A stretch of 64,000 bases of DNA from Bacteroidota bacterium (GTDB lineage Bacteria > Bacteroidota > Bacteroidia > Flavobacteriales_D > Sanyastnellaceae). Shown piece by piece: positions 57,090 through 64,000 of the stretch; the first letter of the stretch is position 1, and each line of letters starts with the position of its first letter. The position numbers and the translations under genes are program-made. The stretch is from assembly GCA_027624855.1 (NCBI GenBank), contig JAQBTQ010000010.1:1-64000 (forward strand), given 5' to 3'. The notes beneath the pieces were generated by a model. That model made no database searches. It was not told the origin of the DNA and saw only the letters and a list, made by a program, of their open reading frames with translations.

Positions 57090-60000
57090 TTACCGGATTA
57101 GGGTGACATGCCCTTTCCATTCACGCTGATTTGGATCCTGGTGTTGAGATTCAATGTACAGCACCCAAGTGTACACTTCATTTTGACCAAAATGTTGCCC
57201 ATCCGCTTCCACTTGGCCTGACCAATAAGCTGCTGGGTCATTGGTTTGCCAGACAAGATTGCCGTAGCGATTGAATACCTTGAGATGATAGCCTTCAATC
57301 AAATTGGCACCAGAAATTTCTGGTCTCCAACCATCATTGATTCCATCAGATACTCCTTGGTTTGATGGTGTGAAAGCATTGGGAACAAAAACTTGCAATG
57401 GATTCAGAATTTCAATCGATGTGATCCATTCATTGGTACAGCCATCATCATTGGACACCAAAAGTGCAACTTCGAATATTCCGGCATTTTGATAGGTATG
57501 ATGCCCATTCCATTCGGTTGAAGCGTTGCCATCTCCAAAATCCCATATGGCAAAACCGGAATCGGAGTAATTCTCAAAATTCCAAGTACTATTGTATGGA
57601 CTTGGTGCTTCGAGCGTGCCAGAATATGGGATTGGATCAAAGTACACTTCTGGACTTGCCAATACGTTTACAGGAACCTCCATCGGAATGATTCCTTTGC
57701 ATCCATTCCTGGACATGACCTCTACTTCCAATTGATAGGTTCCCGATTGAGCGAGTGTGATCCCGTTGAGGACCTCATCAGCATGGATCAATTGGTCACC
57801 GAACCACACATTGTGGCCCAGTACCTGAGCGCCGGTTGTGGTATGAATGTCGATTTCCAATGGTTCACAACCCATCAATGGCTCAACAAATAGTTCCGCT
57901 GTCGGCAATGGCAAAACGTTCAATGAATCAGTGACATGGGCAGAACAGCCCCATTCATTTACCAAAATTGACTCAATGTGATTCCATCCCATTTGATTCA
58001 ATGTAAGCTTTCCTGATGATCCATTCAACGCCAGATCACCATTGACCAGCCATTGCATACTCGACCCCAATGGAATCAGCTCTTCAATGGGCCACTCCGA
58101 TGGCAAACCACAAACCACATTGGTATCGAGCTTCCAAATATTTTTGGGTTTTGGATGCAATGCAATCAAAACAGAATCCGAACCAACACACCCCCATGGA
58201 TCGTGAACTTGAGCAGAAACCAAAAACTCTTCAGCGCCTGATTCATTATGGAATTGGTGGGCATTGATTGAAAACCCTTGGTCATTGAAACCATCTCCAA
58301 AATCCCAGTGCCAATCGTGCCAGGTTTCTAAGGTGTCATCAATGGAGAAATTGACTTCCAATGGACTGCACCCTTCCCATTGATCGGCCTCTATGTTGAA
58401 CATTGGAGCTGCATGCACCTCAAAGTTCCATAAAGCTTCTGTAGTGCAACCCGTTTCGCTCAAACTCGCAATAACATGCACTTCATGTGTTCCTTGAGAA
58501 TCAACAAAATACACAGCAGAATCGGCATCGAACGACTGCAAACCTGCACCGTCCCATTGAATTTCATCAGCATACCATGTTGCGACTTGGATCTCCATCG
58601 AATCATAGAGGCATGCAACAGGCTGAGAATTGAGGAATTCTATTTGAGGAGCCGGCAGGACCTGTACGGTATCATAAGCCGTATTTGTTCCACAGGGATG
58701 AGTCCAGTAAAGCCCTACGACGTATGCCTGTGGCGTCTCCAGTGCATCCAAAGAAGTTTCAAATAAAGAAGCATTTGACATGGAAACCCCATCCAATATC
58801 CACTCCCATTCCATTTCATTCAGGTTGCCATTGGGCTCAAAAACTACCTGCACTGGTGCACAACCACTCGAAACAGAGCTCGTGATTTCCATTGATGGAA
58901 CGGCATCGACCCAAGCCGTTTGGTTGGAAACCGCCACACAACCCGCCACGTCGATTGAACTCAATTCAATGGAGATGAACCCAGAATCTGAAGCAGCGTA
59001 TTCAATGGATGCACCACTTTCAATCTCGTTTTCATTGATGAACCATTGAATCTGCGAGAATTGAGTCGCGTTCGACACGTTAAATGAAACGGTATCCAAT
59101 GCACATAAAACACTTGGCACTTCAACTTCAGGAATGATCGGAGCATGCACCTGGATTTCTAGGATAACCTCACCACTGCAAAGAGTCAACGAATCCACAA
59201 AGGCCAATTCCAACGAATGCACACCCGGCCCGGCTTCCATCGGAGCAAACAATCCTTGGACCGGTTCCAAAATACCAATGCCTTGCCAAATCCCACTGAT
59301 TTCGCTGAATTCAGCTAGCAACGTTTCGGATTGATTAGAGCACAGATTAGGCAAAGCGAATGGTTGCACTGCAGGCTCTGGCAAAACGTCAATCAACATT
59401 GTATCCGTCACCCAACAACTCGCTTCGCCTTGGCTTACGATGAATGCATGAGTTCCCGTATTGAGTGCATTCACATCAATCAATCCGAGCCCCGCATCTA
59501 AAATGGAATTGGTTGCTTCCTCGTTTTCGGCTGACCATATCACATTCCCATTGGAAGCAATCAATGGAAGAACCATTTCTCCCGAGTTCGAACAAACTGA
59601 TTGATCTGCACCAGTCTGCAGTGTCGCTGGAGCATTTACGTGGACCATCACCGTATCCGCAGAGGCACAGCCCATTTCTGGTTCAAATAGATGAACAATA
59701 GCATGCTGTCCAATTGGCAGTAAACCCGGATTCAGCAGTCCCGATTCACTCACTGAACCCGAATCCAAACCCAACCCATCAAACCAAGAAGTTCCAGGTT
59801 CAGAGGTGACCACAAATTCGTTCAAATCAACGGCAATCGATTGATTGCAAACTAAAATATCAGCCTCTATCGATGCATCGGCTGGCACTCCAACAATCAC
59901 GTCTGATTGAACCATCGATGAACACCCCCATTCATTCGTCACAGCAACACTGATTTCGTGTGAACCCGGTGCGCTCCAAGTCGTTTGGAATGACGTTTCT

Positions 60001-62822
60001 GTGGATGTGACCAATTCGTTATCAACACTCCAGACAATATCCATGATTGCATCTGCATTGGAAATGGGGTCGACAGAGAACACAAGCGATGAATCTGGGC
60101 ACGATACAGTCGGTACATCCAATGCTAGCACCGGTAATGCATGAATTTCTATTTCGATGGAATCCACTGCTGGACAAAAGACACCTACCTCCTCAAAATA
60201 ATAGGTGTATAAGCCGACTTCGAGTCCTTGCATATCAACCTGATTCGGAACCTCGTCAGAGATGGACGGTCCGGTCCATACACCTTCAACACCTGCCAAT
60301 TCTGGTAATGCTAACGTTCCTACTCCAAAACATGCATCGATTTTACTTTCGAATTCCAAGGCATTGGGGCTGATTGCCTCGATAGTCAGTGTGTCCGATC
60401 CAAAGCATCCATTTTCATCAACGACAGAATAAACAGCGAATGAGCTCATACTGGTCAACATGGATAGATTGAGTGAATTGCCGCTGATGCCTGCGCCCGT
60501 CCATTGTCCATTTGCTGGAATTGCTTCAGGCAATGTCACAATGGAATCATTCGTACATGCGTTTAACAGCGAAGGCAATTCGATGAATGGGGATTGAACG
60601 GCATCAACGAATACCACGGATTCATCCGAACAACCAAAACCATCAATGACCAGCAATTCAAAAACATTCAAAGCACTCGAACCACTGGATGCATCCGCCA
60701 CCCAAAATGGCAAACCATTGGCATCGAACTGCAATCCACCTGACCATTCATAGCCGTAGTCACTTCCTTCGGCCAAATTTCCTCCAATCACCTGCACTTC
60801 CATCCACACCGTATCCCCATGACAGGCAATCTCTTCATCCACCGAAAGCAGAGCGATGGGGGCTTCCAAAACCTCCCAAATGGTCGTGTCCTGGGTTAGG
60901 CATGACCCTTGACCGAGGGAGAAAACGAGCTCGTTTGAACCGGCATTCAATTCAGATACATCAACCGTTGAGGTTGAAGGAATGACTCCCGGCCCTGACC
61001 AAACGCCTTGTTCTTGTTGTTGCGATACAGGAATTGAAACCAAGGCAGAACCCTCGCACAACGTAGTATCTGTTCCCGCATAGGCCATTGTCGGATTGAC
61101 AATCGAAATGGTCGTTGAATCTTGAGCACTACAGCCATCCGCATCCGAGTAGTGATAGACCGCTTCATGCTCTCCCAAACCGTAATCAACGGGGTTGATG
61201 CTTTCGGCTACAGGGGACAACTCTGTCGACCAAAAACCTCCCTCTGGCCATCCTGAACCCAAAGGTTCTTGGAAGTCTTGATCACAGAAAATCATTCCGT
61301 CCAATGCTGAAACAATCGGGAGCGATTTGATTTGGATGAAGTGAGTCACCGTGTCTGCGCAACCGTAATCAGGCAACCAAACAGGATAAGGATCAAATAT
61401 GACTGCCGCAGAAATCTCATGCATTCCTTCAGACAATTCTTCTGGCGGAATACCCAATGCTACCGAAGTGGAAACGGACGCTGTGGGAGCCCAAGTCGTG
61501 TCATAGGGTTGCTCGTCAATTAACCACTCAATCGACGTATCCCATCCATAACTGATAATATTCGCGACCGCATCGACTGAATCACCAATGCATTCCAAGG
61601 GCTCCGCAGCCAGCGAAACGGATGGAACAAAGAATCCATAAACCGCAAAGCTCGCACTGGAAGAACACTGCGCGGTTCCGTGATCTACCACAGTGTTCAC
61701 GGAGCCTGCTACTTGGTGCCCTACTTGGTATCGAGCCAAAGAATCTCCCTCCGCTCCACCCTGAATGAGGGTCGAATTTGAATTCCACGTAAACGATCCT
61801 TCACCGGTAGCAACAAAATCCACGTACGAGCCTTGACAATACCAATTGTGAGAAGACGCCACTTGAACTTGAGGGGTAGGATGAACTTCGACCCAAGTCG
61901 TATCAGAGTCAGAACCACACTCATTTTCAGCAATTGCTACTATCCCCTCAGAGCCTGCTTCACCAAAGACATGGGTGAGCGGAGCAGGAAAAGGAGATTC
62001 AAATACGTTTGAGTCAACCTCCCAAGCAAATGAAGTGATTGCCGTATTTCCAGGATTCACCAATACGTGCAAGGTCCCCTCATCTTCTTGGCAAAGCTCC
62101 AAATCATTTAAGATGGATACCGTAGGAGCTTGAGCAAGTTCGACCAGCAAAGGCTCAATCGATATAGCGCATTGATGAGTTGAGTCGATGTCATGTAGCG
62201 TTGCCTCAATTTGGTAATTGACGGGGTCTTCAAATTGAATCCATGGATTGATAGACGTAGCATCCGACTGCTCAACCCAAGCAAAATCTCCCCCTTGAAC
62301 TTCCCATGTGACCGTGTAATGATCCCAAAGCATGGAATCCAAATCAAGCATCATCTGTGTTTGAACCGATGTACAGCCTGTATCGTCGCTAAGGCCAATG
62401 CTCACAGAATCGTTCCAGGGAAAACATTGGCAATGATCCGTTACCTCCGAAGCAACTTCCTCAAGGAATAAAGTGGACGAACAAAAACATGTGGTGCCAT
62501 TTTCTCCCATCCAACCTATTTGAACTTCGAGCGCATGATTGCCGAAAACCCAAGAATAGGGTGCTGAAAATTTCTGGCCTTCACCGAGAAACGATTCATT
62601 GGAAAACCAAGTAATGCTTTCAATCGCTGCAGTGTCGCCCGCAAGCATTAGCGAAAATTCAACCTCACACGATTCTGCCGTCCAACTGATGATTGGTTCA
62701 AATGCTCCGCAATTGATTGGACAGTCTTGACTCATGCCCCTCGTAGGAGCCATCCAAAATGCCATGGATACAACAAGCAAGACCGTGCAGGCTTTGATTC
62801 TATGCAATCTCTGAGAGAACAT
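57090..62822 (-). CDS. Giant secreted protein with PKD/Ig-like repeats and type B T9SS sorting domain
   Basis: 1910 residues. Signal peptide MFSQRLHRIKACTVLLVVSMAFW...GMSQ, then about twenty 70-90 residue beta-sandwich units. Many contain CLGVYTYYFEEVG-like patterns (for example VGLYTYYFEEVGVFC) and motifs such as GVWTGPSISDEV or GQWTGAGISGNS; true PKD units are near the C-terminus (WHDWHWDFGDGFNDQ and SGFAIWDFGDGNASTEWNGH). It closes with QVFVPNAFTPSNQGVSDGIN and FNRYGNLVWQTNDP (about 1807-1910), the gliding-motility-associated type B sorting domain. Likely a T9SS-exported surface fibre or adhesin. Base use matches its neighbours. Confidence 0.85.
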   Translation of the reverse strand: MFSQRLHRIKACTVLLVVSMAFWMAPTRGMSQDCPINCGAFEPIISWTAESCEVEFSLMLAGDTAAIESITWFSNESFLGEGQKFSAPYSWVFGNHALEVQIGWMGENGTTCFCSSTLFLEEVASEVTDHCQCFPWNDSVSIGLSDDTGCTSVQTQMMLDLDSMLWDHYTVTWEVQGGDFAWVEQSDATSINPWIQFEDPVNYQIEATLHDIDSTHQCAISIEPLLVELAQAPTVSILNDLELCQEDEGTLHVLVNPGNTAITSFAWEVDSNVFESPFPAPLTHVFGEAGSEGIVAIAENECGSDSDTTWVEVHPTPQVQVASSHNWYCQGSYVDFVATGEGSFTWNSNSTLIQGGAEGDSLARYQVGHQVAGSVNTVVDHGTAQCSSSASFAVYGFFVPSVSLAAEPLECIGDSVDAVANIISYGWDTSIEWLIDEQPYDTTWAPTASVSTSVALGIPPEELSEGMHEISAAVIFDPYPVWLPDYGCADTVTHFIQIKSLPIVSALDGMIFCDQDFQEPLGSGWPEGGFWSTELSPVAESINPVDYGLGEHEAVYHYSDADGCSAQDSTTISIVNPTMAYAGTDTTLCEGSALVSIPVSQQQEQGVWSGPGVIPSTSTVDVSELNAGSNELVFSLGQGSCLTQDTTIWEVLEAPIALLSVDEEIACHGDTVWMEVQVIGGNLAEGSDYGYEWSGGLQFDANGLPFWVADASSGSSALNVFELLVIDGFGCSDESVVFVDAVQSPFIELPSLLNACTNDSIVTLPEAIPANGQWTGAGISGNSLNLSMLTSMSSFAVYSVVDENGCFGSDTLTIEAISPNALEFESKIDACFGVGTLALPELAGVEGVWTGPSISDEVPNQVDMQGLEVGLYTYYFEEVGVFCPAVDSIEIEIHALPVLALDVPTVSCPDSSLVFSVDPISNADAIMDIVWSVDNELVTSTETSFQTTWSAPGSHEISVAVTNEWGCSSMVQSDVIVGVPADASIEADILVCNQSIAVDLNEFVVTSEPGTSWFDGLGLDSGSVSESGLLNPGLLPIGQHAIVHLFEPEMGCASADTVMVHVNAPATLQTGADQSVCSNSGEMVLPLIASNGNVIWSAENEEATNSILDAGLGLIDVNALNTGTHAFIVSQGEASCWVTDTMLIDVLPEPAVQPFALPNLCSNQSETLLAEFSEISGIWQGIGILEPVQGLFAPMEAGPGVHSLELAFVDSLTLCSGEVILEIQVHAPIIPEVEVPSVLCALDTVSFNVSNATQFSQIQWFINENEIESGASIEYAASDSGFISIELSSIDVAGCVAVSNQTAWVDAVPSMEITSSVSSGCAPVQVVFEPNGNLNEMEWEWILDGVSMSNASLFETSLDALETPQAYVVGLYWTHPCGTNTAYDTVQVLPAPQIEFLNSQPVACLYDSMEIQVATWYADEIQWDGAGLQSFDADSAVYFVDSQGTHEVHVIASLSETGCTTEALWNFEVHAAPMFNIEADQWEGCSPLEVNFSIDDTLETWHDWHWDFGDGFNDQGFSINAHQFHNESGAEEFLVSAQVHDPWGCVGSDSVLIALHPKPKNIWKLDTNVVCGLPSEWPIEELIPLGSSMQWLVNGDLALNGSSGKLTLNQMGWNHIESILVNEWGCSAHVTDSLNVLPLPTAELFVEPLMGCEPLEIDIHTTTGAQVLGHNVWFGDQLIHADEVLNGITLAQSGTYQLEVEVMSRNGCKGIIPMEVPVNVLASPEVYFDPIPYSGTLEAPSPYNSTWNFENYSDSGFAIWDFGDGNASTEWNGHHTYQNAGIFEVALLVSNDDGCTNEWITSIEILNPLQVFVPNAFTPSNQGVSDGINDGWRPEISGANLIEGYHLKVFNRYGNLVWQTNDPAAYWSGQVEADGQHFGQNEVYTWVLYIESQHQDPNQREWKGHVTLIR

Positions 62823-63044
62823 ACTCCCGTGAATACGAGAATTACGCTGTCTTCGTTACAATTGCTTGCAAAATCTTTCTAAGACTCCACTTATCCTTCA
62901 TGAACACTTGTTTAAAACTGATGTGAATACGTTGTTAATTTTCATCGCAGATATTTTTTGGAGTAAACGAACTCTGCGTATTCCTTTGGCACTGTCAACG
63001 AACGGAAACGTTCACGGAATCAAGAAGTAACGTGCAAACGAGAC
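62823..63044. other. Intergenic region upstream of giant gene and RNA candidate
   Basis: 222 AT-rich bases with no credible gene. On the plus strand TTG at 62932-62934 and TATTTTTTG at 62952-62960, 17 bases apart, resemble a Bacteroidota promoter with one extra base in the -7 box. This could drive the downstream structured RNA. The minus-strand promoter of the giant gene must also lie here but was not identified. Confidence 0.35.
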
Positions 63045-63640
63045 TAGGCGATTTGAATGGACTCCTCGGAGATCATGCTTAACCGGACACGCAGCGCACA
63101 AAGGTGCGTTGTTGAGAAAGTCATGAATTCAAGGTGCGTTCTGAAAATGAGCGCATTGCTTTCAAAGCCATCCTGAAATTCGATGAATGCAAATTCAACG
63201 AGTGAATGATGTTGAAGGAGTGCGTTAGCGAGGAATACCGTTTCGACGATATTCTTGACCCGAAAGGGTGTCTTTCCCTCGGAAGAAAGACAAGGTGAAA
63301 CCTCGCGGTAGAGCCTTCCAAGGCAGCGTTTCGGCGCTGACAGCGCTAAATGGGCGATGCTGCAAGGCAACAACCACTTTCTCAGCCAATCGGGAAACCG
63401 AGAGGCAAAATACCCGAGTCAAGACGGAAGTGGAAAGCTTGAATTTCAAGATTTCCCACAGAGGCATCCTTGCCAAAGTGACACTGAGAAGTGGACAAAA
63501 GTCAAAACCCCGGGTGAGCCGCGTGCAACAGCACATGCCAAGGAAACCCCGAGGCAAGCCAAAAACAATTCATTGTCGAGGCTGCGGAGAAACCGCGATA
63601 TGCATTGTGTTGAAAGACATAATCGTATCGCGGTTTTTTA
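63045..63640 (+). ncRNA. Candidate large structured noncoding RNA or long leader upstream of amtB
   Basis: About 600 bases with no supportable coding sequence but at least ten short perfect hairpins in succession: 63095-63108 (CGCAC/GTGCG), 63233-63254 (GAATA/TATTC), 63258-63269 (ACCC-GAAA-GGGT), 63269-63292 (TGTCTTTC/GAAAGACA), 63293-63303 (AGGT/ACCT), 63313-63324 (GCCT/AGGC), 63324-63339 (CAGCG/CGCTG), 63390-63401 (TCGG-GAAA-CCGA), 63430-63459 (long, CTTGA/TCAAG core inside GTGG/CCAC), 63463-63474 (GGCA/TGCC) and 63523-63534 (GTGC/GCAC). GAAA tetraloops and the 3' T-tract both point to the plus strand. The conserved RNase P core (GAGGAAAGTCC) and a tmRNA tag are not seen. The 5' end is a guess. 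Confidence 0.5.
63591..63640 (+). terminator. Rho-independent terminator closing the RNA candidate
   Basis: Ten-base perfect stem AACCGCGATA (63591-63600) / TATCGCGGTT (63626-63635) with a 25-base loop, followed directly by TTTTTA on the plus strand. It ends about 93 bases before the amtB start, so it either ends an independent RNA or acts as an attenuator of amtB. Confidence 0.85.
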
Positions 63641-63732
63641 TTCACAAGAATTGAGCCCTTCAATTTTACTCAGTAATTTGCGGCTTCGGCAATTACCCGA
63701 AGTCTCCCTCTTTTTTATCGGATTTATTGGAA

Positions 63733-64000
63733 ATGAATAGAAAATTCAATTTTCTGTTGCTATCGATTTTGGTAATGGCAACTTGTTTATTTGGTGTTGA
63801 CTACACCACGCCTTCCTCAAAAGATCTTTCGCTGGACTCGGGCGATACCGCTTGGATGATTGTAGCCAGCGCTTTCGTCTTATTGATGACCCCGGGATTG
63901 GCTTTCTTCTATGGAGGAATGGTCAATAAGAAAAACGTCATCTCAACCATGCTGCAGAGCTTCGTGGCTCTTGGAGTCATCAGTGTAGTTTGGGTCTTTG
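63733..64000 (+). CDS. amtB: Ammonium transporter, N-terminal part (runs off window)
   Basis: Only the first 89 codons are present. ATG at 63733 begins MNRKFNFLLLSILVMATCLFG, a signal-like hydrophobic segment, then SGDTAWMIVASAFVLLMTPG and LAFFYGGMVNKKNVISTMLQ, which match the first transmembrane helices of the Amt/Mep family (DTAWxLxSAxLVLxMTPGLAxFYGGxV). It moves ammonium/ammonia across the inner membrane. Whether a glnK gene follows cannot be seen. Confidence 0.93.
   Translation, partial: MNRKFNFLLLSILVMATCLFGVDYTTPSSKDLSLDSGDTAWMIVASAFVLLMTPGLAFFYGGMVNKKNVISTMLQSFVALGVISVVWVF

Follow-up and report, generated by a model that had tools for sequence, protein, structure and literature searches.

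To our knowledge, few classes of large noncoding RNA are known in bacteria, and basic functions are typical of them. RNase P RNA, for example, is large and contains GNRA and T-loop motifs. OLE RNA, about 600 nt long and elaborately folded, is encoded by a bacterial chromosomal gene (PMC10898510, in the part of the source that was available); it belongs to Gram-positive bacteria and, within that same part, is reported to be well conserved in sequence. ROOL and GOLLD are large ornate RNAs which sometimes lie near tRNA genes (PMC12286853, from an extract of the source), and in Flavobacterium, Rfp18 is a small RNA that pairs with mRNAs (PMC9723704, accessible portion only). The RNA proposed here resembles OLE in being of the 600-nt class, elaborately folded and chromosomal, but it occurs in Bacteroidia, has no Rfam match and changes fast; no oapA, the partner gene of OLE, was noticed among its neighbours as read by eye and partly with Pfam. 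It is large and ornate like ROOL and GOLLD, but it is chromosomal, has its own conserved promoter array and matches no phage or plasmid. GNRA and T-loop-like motifs bring it close to RNase P RNA, although that RNA has a separate gene in this genome, and it is a structured flavobacterial RNA as Rfp18 is, Rfp18 itself being small and mRNA-pairing. What is new is an RNA class for which no family relation was found; as a kind, it falls among the large ornate RNAs already represented by OLE, ROOL and GOLLD.

Within the window (the whole stretch of DNA analysed, 64,000 nt), the initial annotation had singled out positions 63045-63640 as a dense succession of hairpins. The stems that it listed are present in the sequence and the hairpin stretch stands, but not its start at 63045: the 5′ end had been clipped, and homologues put the start of the RNA near 62993. 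The large structured RNA is placed at 62993-63640 on the plus strand, about 650 nt, its start being inferred from the promoter and its end from the terminator. On the plus strand, 63020-63650 folds to -227.9 kcal/mol; 20 dinucleotide shuffles averaged -177.0 (sd 6.5), and none was as low (z -7.8). The minus strand folds more weakly (-204.5, z -6.0).

All the elements that follow are on the plus strand. The 5′ hairpin GAACG-GAAA-CGTTC (63000-63013) has 3 of its 5 pairs changed on both sides between the window and the other members. A 9-bp hairpin around CGCACAAAGGTGCG occupies 63091-63112 (stem 63091-63099/63104-63112), in which GCACAAAGGTGC does not vary among the 8 closest members. At 63133-63157, a hairpin carries the heptaloop TGAAAAT (63142-63148), the UGARAAU loop of the family, which fits the U-GNR-A-NN rule for T-loops. 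The two GAAA-closed stems announced in plus orientation were found, CCC-GAAA-GGG at 63259-63268 and CGG-GAAA-CCG at 63391-63400. The first, as ACCC-GAAA-GGGT, covers 63258-63269 (sequence and fold), and the second, as TCGG-GAAA-CCGA, covers 63390-63401, where relatives have GCGG-GCAA-CCGC or CCGG-GCAA-CCGG. The 10-bp terminator is also as first described, with a stem 63591-63600/63626-63635 followed by T's. This long terminal hairpin and T-tract (63591-63640), read as an intrinsic terminator, has as its counterpart in a six-member group of homologues helix 37, of 21 pairs, with 99.2% of cells paired.

Downstream, and outside the RNA gene, lies the 5′ part of amtB, the ammonium transporter gene (63727-63999, plus strand, PF00909, E 1.2e-10). 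A short stretch before amtB, 63673-63728, which contains the hairpin CTTCGG-caattac-CCGAAG, is weakly similar to DNA upstream of amtB in several other genomes of the genus (e.g. L010, L015, L007, L011) and may be a separate amtB leader element. On the other side, the divergent neighbour (57090-62822, minus strand) encodes a protein of 1910 aa in which PKD domains and a CHU_C type IX secretion signal were recognised.

Seven homologues were detected among 21 other genomes of the genus, using a pattern for the 5′ hairpin and a covariance model, R1. With the window, this makes eight clear members, all of one genus (G000, G001, G004, G011, G013, G014, G016 and G019), in which the distance from the TTTG of the -7 element to the terminator is 655-676 nt. 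When 100 relatives were searched by BLAST with the region, only short matches came up, two of which (G013 and G011) extend to real homologues by sensitive BLAST or closer alignment; the RNA is upstream of amtB in G011 and far from it in G013. The pattern, 25 bases made of the 5′ hairpin and its flanks, was found at 13 places in 10 genomes, 8 of these places being the members. The five others (in G015, G008, G019:C78, G001:C6 and G014:C156) have stems that do not pair and were therefore put down to chance; in the G008 and G015 genomes, a member exists at a different place. The same pattern detected 7 stretches in public contigs, 6 of them known members, labelled as Flavobacteriales or Crocinitomicaceae MAGs, and one (L086) considered a chance match.

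Model R1 matched 11 of 114 genomes of the family at E<=0.01, including the 8 clear members and the more distant G020 (E 7.9e-4). Two matches were rejected, one in G007, which is false and falls inside a coding gene (Glyoxalase-family domain), and one in G107, a hairpin taken as chance. Since the window is among the seeds of R1, its score there is no test. A second model, R2, was built from six other members (group A), leaving the window out, and the window locus was its sole match in the 64 kb (E 1.4e-4). R2 alone is not decisive, because the presumed chance hairpin of G107 (L081) scores E 6.7e-4, better than a true member (L064, 0.0028), and G020 is given only E 4.9.

The structure is kept across relatives. 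In group A, RNAalifold predicts 198 pairs, with 97.5% of cells paired, and 21 pairs are changed on both sides, whereas 500 shuffles give 5.5 (sd 2.1) and sliding the partners gives 1-8. These numbers are in favour of the structured RNA suspected from the outset, its stems being kept through changes on both sides, with the caveat that the majority of the both-sided changes come from one divergent sequence, G016. The signal from further pair types is weaker, as 25 of the 500 shuffles reached it. When the window and G011 are compared with group A, 17 of the 38 pairs predicted in the 5′ 184 columns are changed on both sides. No full-length alignment could be achieved for the window RNA, nor for the RNAs outside groups A-C.

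More generally, consensus folds of fourteen group alignments (sets of ten, three and one) gave z values of -6.5 to -16.6, against +1.1, -0.6, -2.1 and -3.2 for four flank control alignments. In this calculation, columns were shuffled within conservation classes, 16 times each, without keeping dinucleotides, and several groups hold only 2-3 sequences. The ten-group set leaves out L102 (contig ends) and L108 (the pattern found no end), and does not contain the window and G011 as a group of their own. Paired columns were less variable than unpaired ones in 7 groups out of 7. The plus-strand consensus was lower in energy than the minus-strand one in the groups of the two smaller sets (e.g. -454 vs -352 in group C). 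Single sequences tell the same: the 420 nt downstream of the promoter array described below have a median z of -2.73 at 48 sites, compared to 0.00 in 42 random windows, and the plus strand is the stabler one in 45 of the 48. We conclude that the RNA strand is the plus strand.

Upstream of the RNA, the promoter region of the window spans overall about 62896-62988, on the plus strand. It comprises an array of DnaA-box-like repeats (62896-62941), i.e. an inverted pair around ACAATTGTT and, after it, two direct repeats spaced by about 11-13 bp, the best-conserved core being 62903-62941. The array is followed by a putative -33 TTG element (62958-62960), inferred, which aligns with the AAAAATTG column block of other members, and by a putative sigma-A-like -7 element ending in TTTG (62979-62988), the TTTG being kept in aligned members (TTG in G011). 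The internal spacing of this -7 box is 2 nt longer than in the flavobacterial consensus, given as TAnnTTTG in the available portion of the source (PMC9723704). The upstream array, the TTG block and, some 20 nt further, TTTG or TTG are common to the eight members and G020.

A matrix of the array made from the 8 other members scored the window site at 38.8 bits, the next best site in the 64 kb reaching 10.0. The consensus over 48 sites is gTTATnaACAATTGTTgAtAAC...tGTgnATac..TGTgaATt. With at most one mismatch, TTATNCACA, which we take to be the DnaA box consensus, occurs 60 times in the 48 sites, compared to 3.5 in shuffles; exact boxes are found in just 10 of the 48. None of seven dnaA loci examined in six genomes had the array (best score 9.3 bits). 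It is also found in the window's own genome at G000:C24:90457-90495 (L180, 28.8 bits), before a gene with a TonB-dependent receptor plug domain. This genome has two equal matches to the Bac_DnaA domain (G000:C6:8618-9103 and G000:C19:30972-31457, L185 and L187, E 3.5e-64 each), which are either two dnaA genes or an assembly effect; the match is single in 4 of 5 other genomes searched.

The distribution of the promoter was followed with R3, a model of its sequence only, without structure. At E<=0.1, R3 matched 72 of the 114 genomes of the family, often weakly; at E<=1e-3 it matched 37: 13 of the 22 genomes of the genus, 10 of genus g14, 7 of g3, 4 of g10, and one each of g5, g12 and g15. Nine of the 22 genus genomes had no R3 match at E<=0.01, including the 99%-complete G018, and only some of the nine are incomplete. 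Among 399 genomes drawn from the order, 46 matched at E<=1e-3; the match is single in 44, while the other two (G061 and G072) have two copies about 540 nt apart. This draw adds families f2 (2 genomes, with two tandem copies each), f3 (2), f4 (2) and f9 (3). The f9 matches are not RNAs: the array can also stand before protein genes, here dnaB in G221 and another coding gene in G317, while G348 is a false match in coding DNA, with a best array score of 5.0 bits, and was left out of the skew, downstream-fold and motif-count sets. Among 395 genomes drawn from the class, three reached E<=1e-4: that of the window and two of f17, which is of another order. In one of these two (G769), the RNA is flanked by a GWxTD-domain gene and a RidA-family (Ribonuc_L-PSP) gene, and similar proteins were read by eye in the other (G603). 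Nearly all array sites in the order and in f17 precede about 230-1030 nt of structured RNA-like DNA.

Two arrangements differ from the common one. In f2, the promoter and a structured RNA are both repeated in tandem (L143 and L144, in G061 and G072, copies about 540 nt apart), the first copies being 91% and the second copies 86% identical between the two genomes. At L150, L151, L159 and L120, the array is followed by a structured stretch of 226-347 nt (z -6.5), and then by a radical-SAM gene read as queE. The segment UUCCAUCYAUGUCCACGU is strongly kept in this stretch, which is possibly a different RNA class.

Two motifs link the bodies of the RNAs. A hairpin with the UGARAAU heptaloop and at least 4 closing pairs is present in 13 of 13 g1 RNAs, 6 of 10 in g14 and 4 of 4 in g10 (23 of 27 overall), compared to 6 occurrences in 455,540 strand-bases of control (0.013 per 1000 bases). 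It was found in none of the 7 g3 loci, none of the 4 of the queE group, and in 0 of 2 loci in each of f2, f3, f4, f17 and f9. T-loops have been described as a U-A pair, a GNR triloop and two bulged bases on the 3′ side (PMC2258182, in the part of the source available). UGARAAU, read as U-GAR-A-AU, fits this description as a sequence rule. The second motif, in the terminator, is TCCGCAYC/TGCGGATTT, of which at least one half was found in 5 of 5 RNAs of g1 group C, 9 of 10 in g14, 7 of 7 in g3 and 4 of 4 in g10. Linked by one or both of these motifs, g1, g14, g10 and g3 form the supported core. The queE group, f2, f3, f4 and f17 are tied to it by the promoter and by having structure, not by an alignment of the body.

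Several other explanations of the locus have to be weighed. A known RNA was searched for in Rfam 15, which gave no gathering-score match over the whole window, in line with the suggestion of an undescribed class. With 62823-63760 at E<=10, only a chance match to mir-1264 came up (E 5.5, 15.8 of 79 bits), and 42 related loci at E<=1 or 3 gave only tRNAs and sub-threshold matches to other families. RNase P RNA and tmRNA had been dismissed at first sight. For the former this is borne out by a separate gene elsewhere in the genome (G000:C12, 193 bits), and for the latter the basis is limited to the Rfam scans of the window and region. The Rfam covariance model of OLE had no match in the window, and we found no description of this RNA in the open PMC literature, subscription papers being outside the scope of that search. 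A protein gene, perhaps on the minus strand, could be imagined from the long minus-strand open frames of group A (up to 280 aa in G001), but G016 has 8 stops in that frame, seven groups show no codon-phase bias of their variable columns (p 0.47-0.99), and neither the four frames of the stretch nor the six tested in all matched Pfam or PHROGs. The initial statement that no reading frame is convincing is upheld, no coding sign being seen and no protein supported, and we practically discount this explanation. An RNA of phages or mobile elements, like ROOL or GOLLD, would account for the size and ornate fold, and a tRNA gene does lie close downstream in 9 of 9 g14 loci and 4 of 6 g3 loci scanned. 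Yet the covariance models of ROOL and GOLLD in Rfam have no match in the window, no phage or prophage context was found, similar DNA is absent from 50,697 phage and 72,556 plasmid records, and two pattern matches in viral contigs are chance; a mobile origin is hardly tenable. The DnaA-box-like array invites another explanation, in which the element would act as DNA, titrating DnaA or forming a replication-origin locus with DNA hairpins. The reading as oriC, considered because of these boxes, was ruled out by GC skew, since single 5-kb bins aside, no switch occurs at the RNA site in the contigs of G000, G011 and G015. In the single-contig G032, where the skew was sampled and not read through, the negative-to-positive switch is at 3.5-3.8 Mb and the site at 0.69 Mb, a separation of about 1 Mb. 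This genome is one of the less certain queE group, and in G001 the RNA is too near the contig end for this analysis. Together with the stabler plus strand and with a structure framed by promoter and terminator, this makes a DNA element very improbable.

Two further explanations accept an RNA and question what it belongs to. In the window and G011 alike, the RNA stands directly upstream of amtB and in its orientation, so it could be a leader or riboswitch controlling that gene. The advice to look for relatives upstream of amtB proved right for these two of the eight closest members and wrong for the other six, in which amtB is on another contig. In addition, an intrinsic terminator ends the RNA about 90 nt before amtB. 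Elsewhere the RNA is next to a photolyase-family gene (downstream in G014, PF03441, with similar proteins by eye in G001 and G004), phoH (G016, PF02562), a tRNA gene, a radical-SAM gene or a RidA-family gene. With one homologue before amtB and six elsewhere, we conclude that the gene is free-standing, and there is little room left for an amtB leader. A more substantial possibility, which we do not favour but cannot set aside, is that outside the core genera only the promoter is homologous, and that it stands before several independent RNA classes. The array also precedes protein genes, and none of the motifs tested links the core with the bodies of the queE group, f2, f3, f4 and f17. Against this, there is mostly a single copy per genome, the promoter is similar in size and position, the 5′ ends read alike, and within f1 the distributions of the loop and terminator motifs over the genera overlap.

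We consider it very probable that the locus is a free-standing gene, normally present in one copy, which encodes a large structured noncoding RNA whose class is absent from Rfam. Its computed support is made of the promoter array, the sigma-A-like promoter, the pairs kept, the terminator, the varying neighbours and the absence of coding signal. In the absence of expression data, we infer that such a gene would be transcribed as one RNA of about 650 nt ending at the terminal hairpin. The product would act in trans, as a folded RNA or an RNA-protein particle, and its T-loop-like and GNRA hairpins may make tertiary contacts; both points are inferences. It is possible, as a tentative proposal without binding data, that the array binds DnaA or another regulator linked to growth or replication, which would couple production of the RNA to growth or the cell cycle. 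The body changes fast in sequence, but its structure and the promoter are conserved; on this ground our working guess by analogy, a rather speculative one, is a scaffold or RNP like OLE and not a base-pairing sRNA. The broadest reading takes it for a housekeeping RNA of ancient origin in Bacteroidia, with a single gene per genome in many lineages, a promoter read by DnaA and a T-loop particle timed with replication; such an RNA would have been missed so far because sequence searches cannot follow a body that evolves so quickly. On present evidence this reading is unlikely, if not to be neglected.

The carriers of this RNA class are uncultured marine and freshwater Flavobacteriales and some of their relatives. 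For RNAs of this sort, whose body is too divergent, searching for the promoter offers a route to find them. If true, the DnaA link would tie a large RNA to the control of replication.
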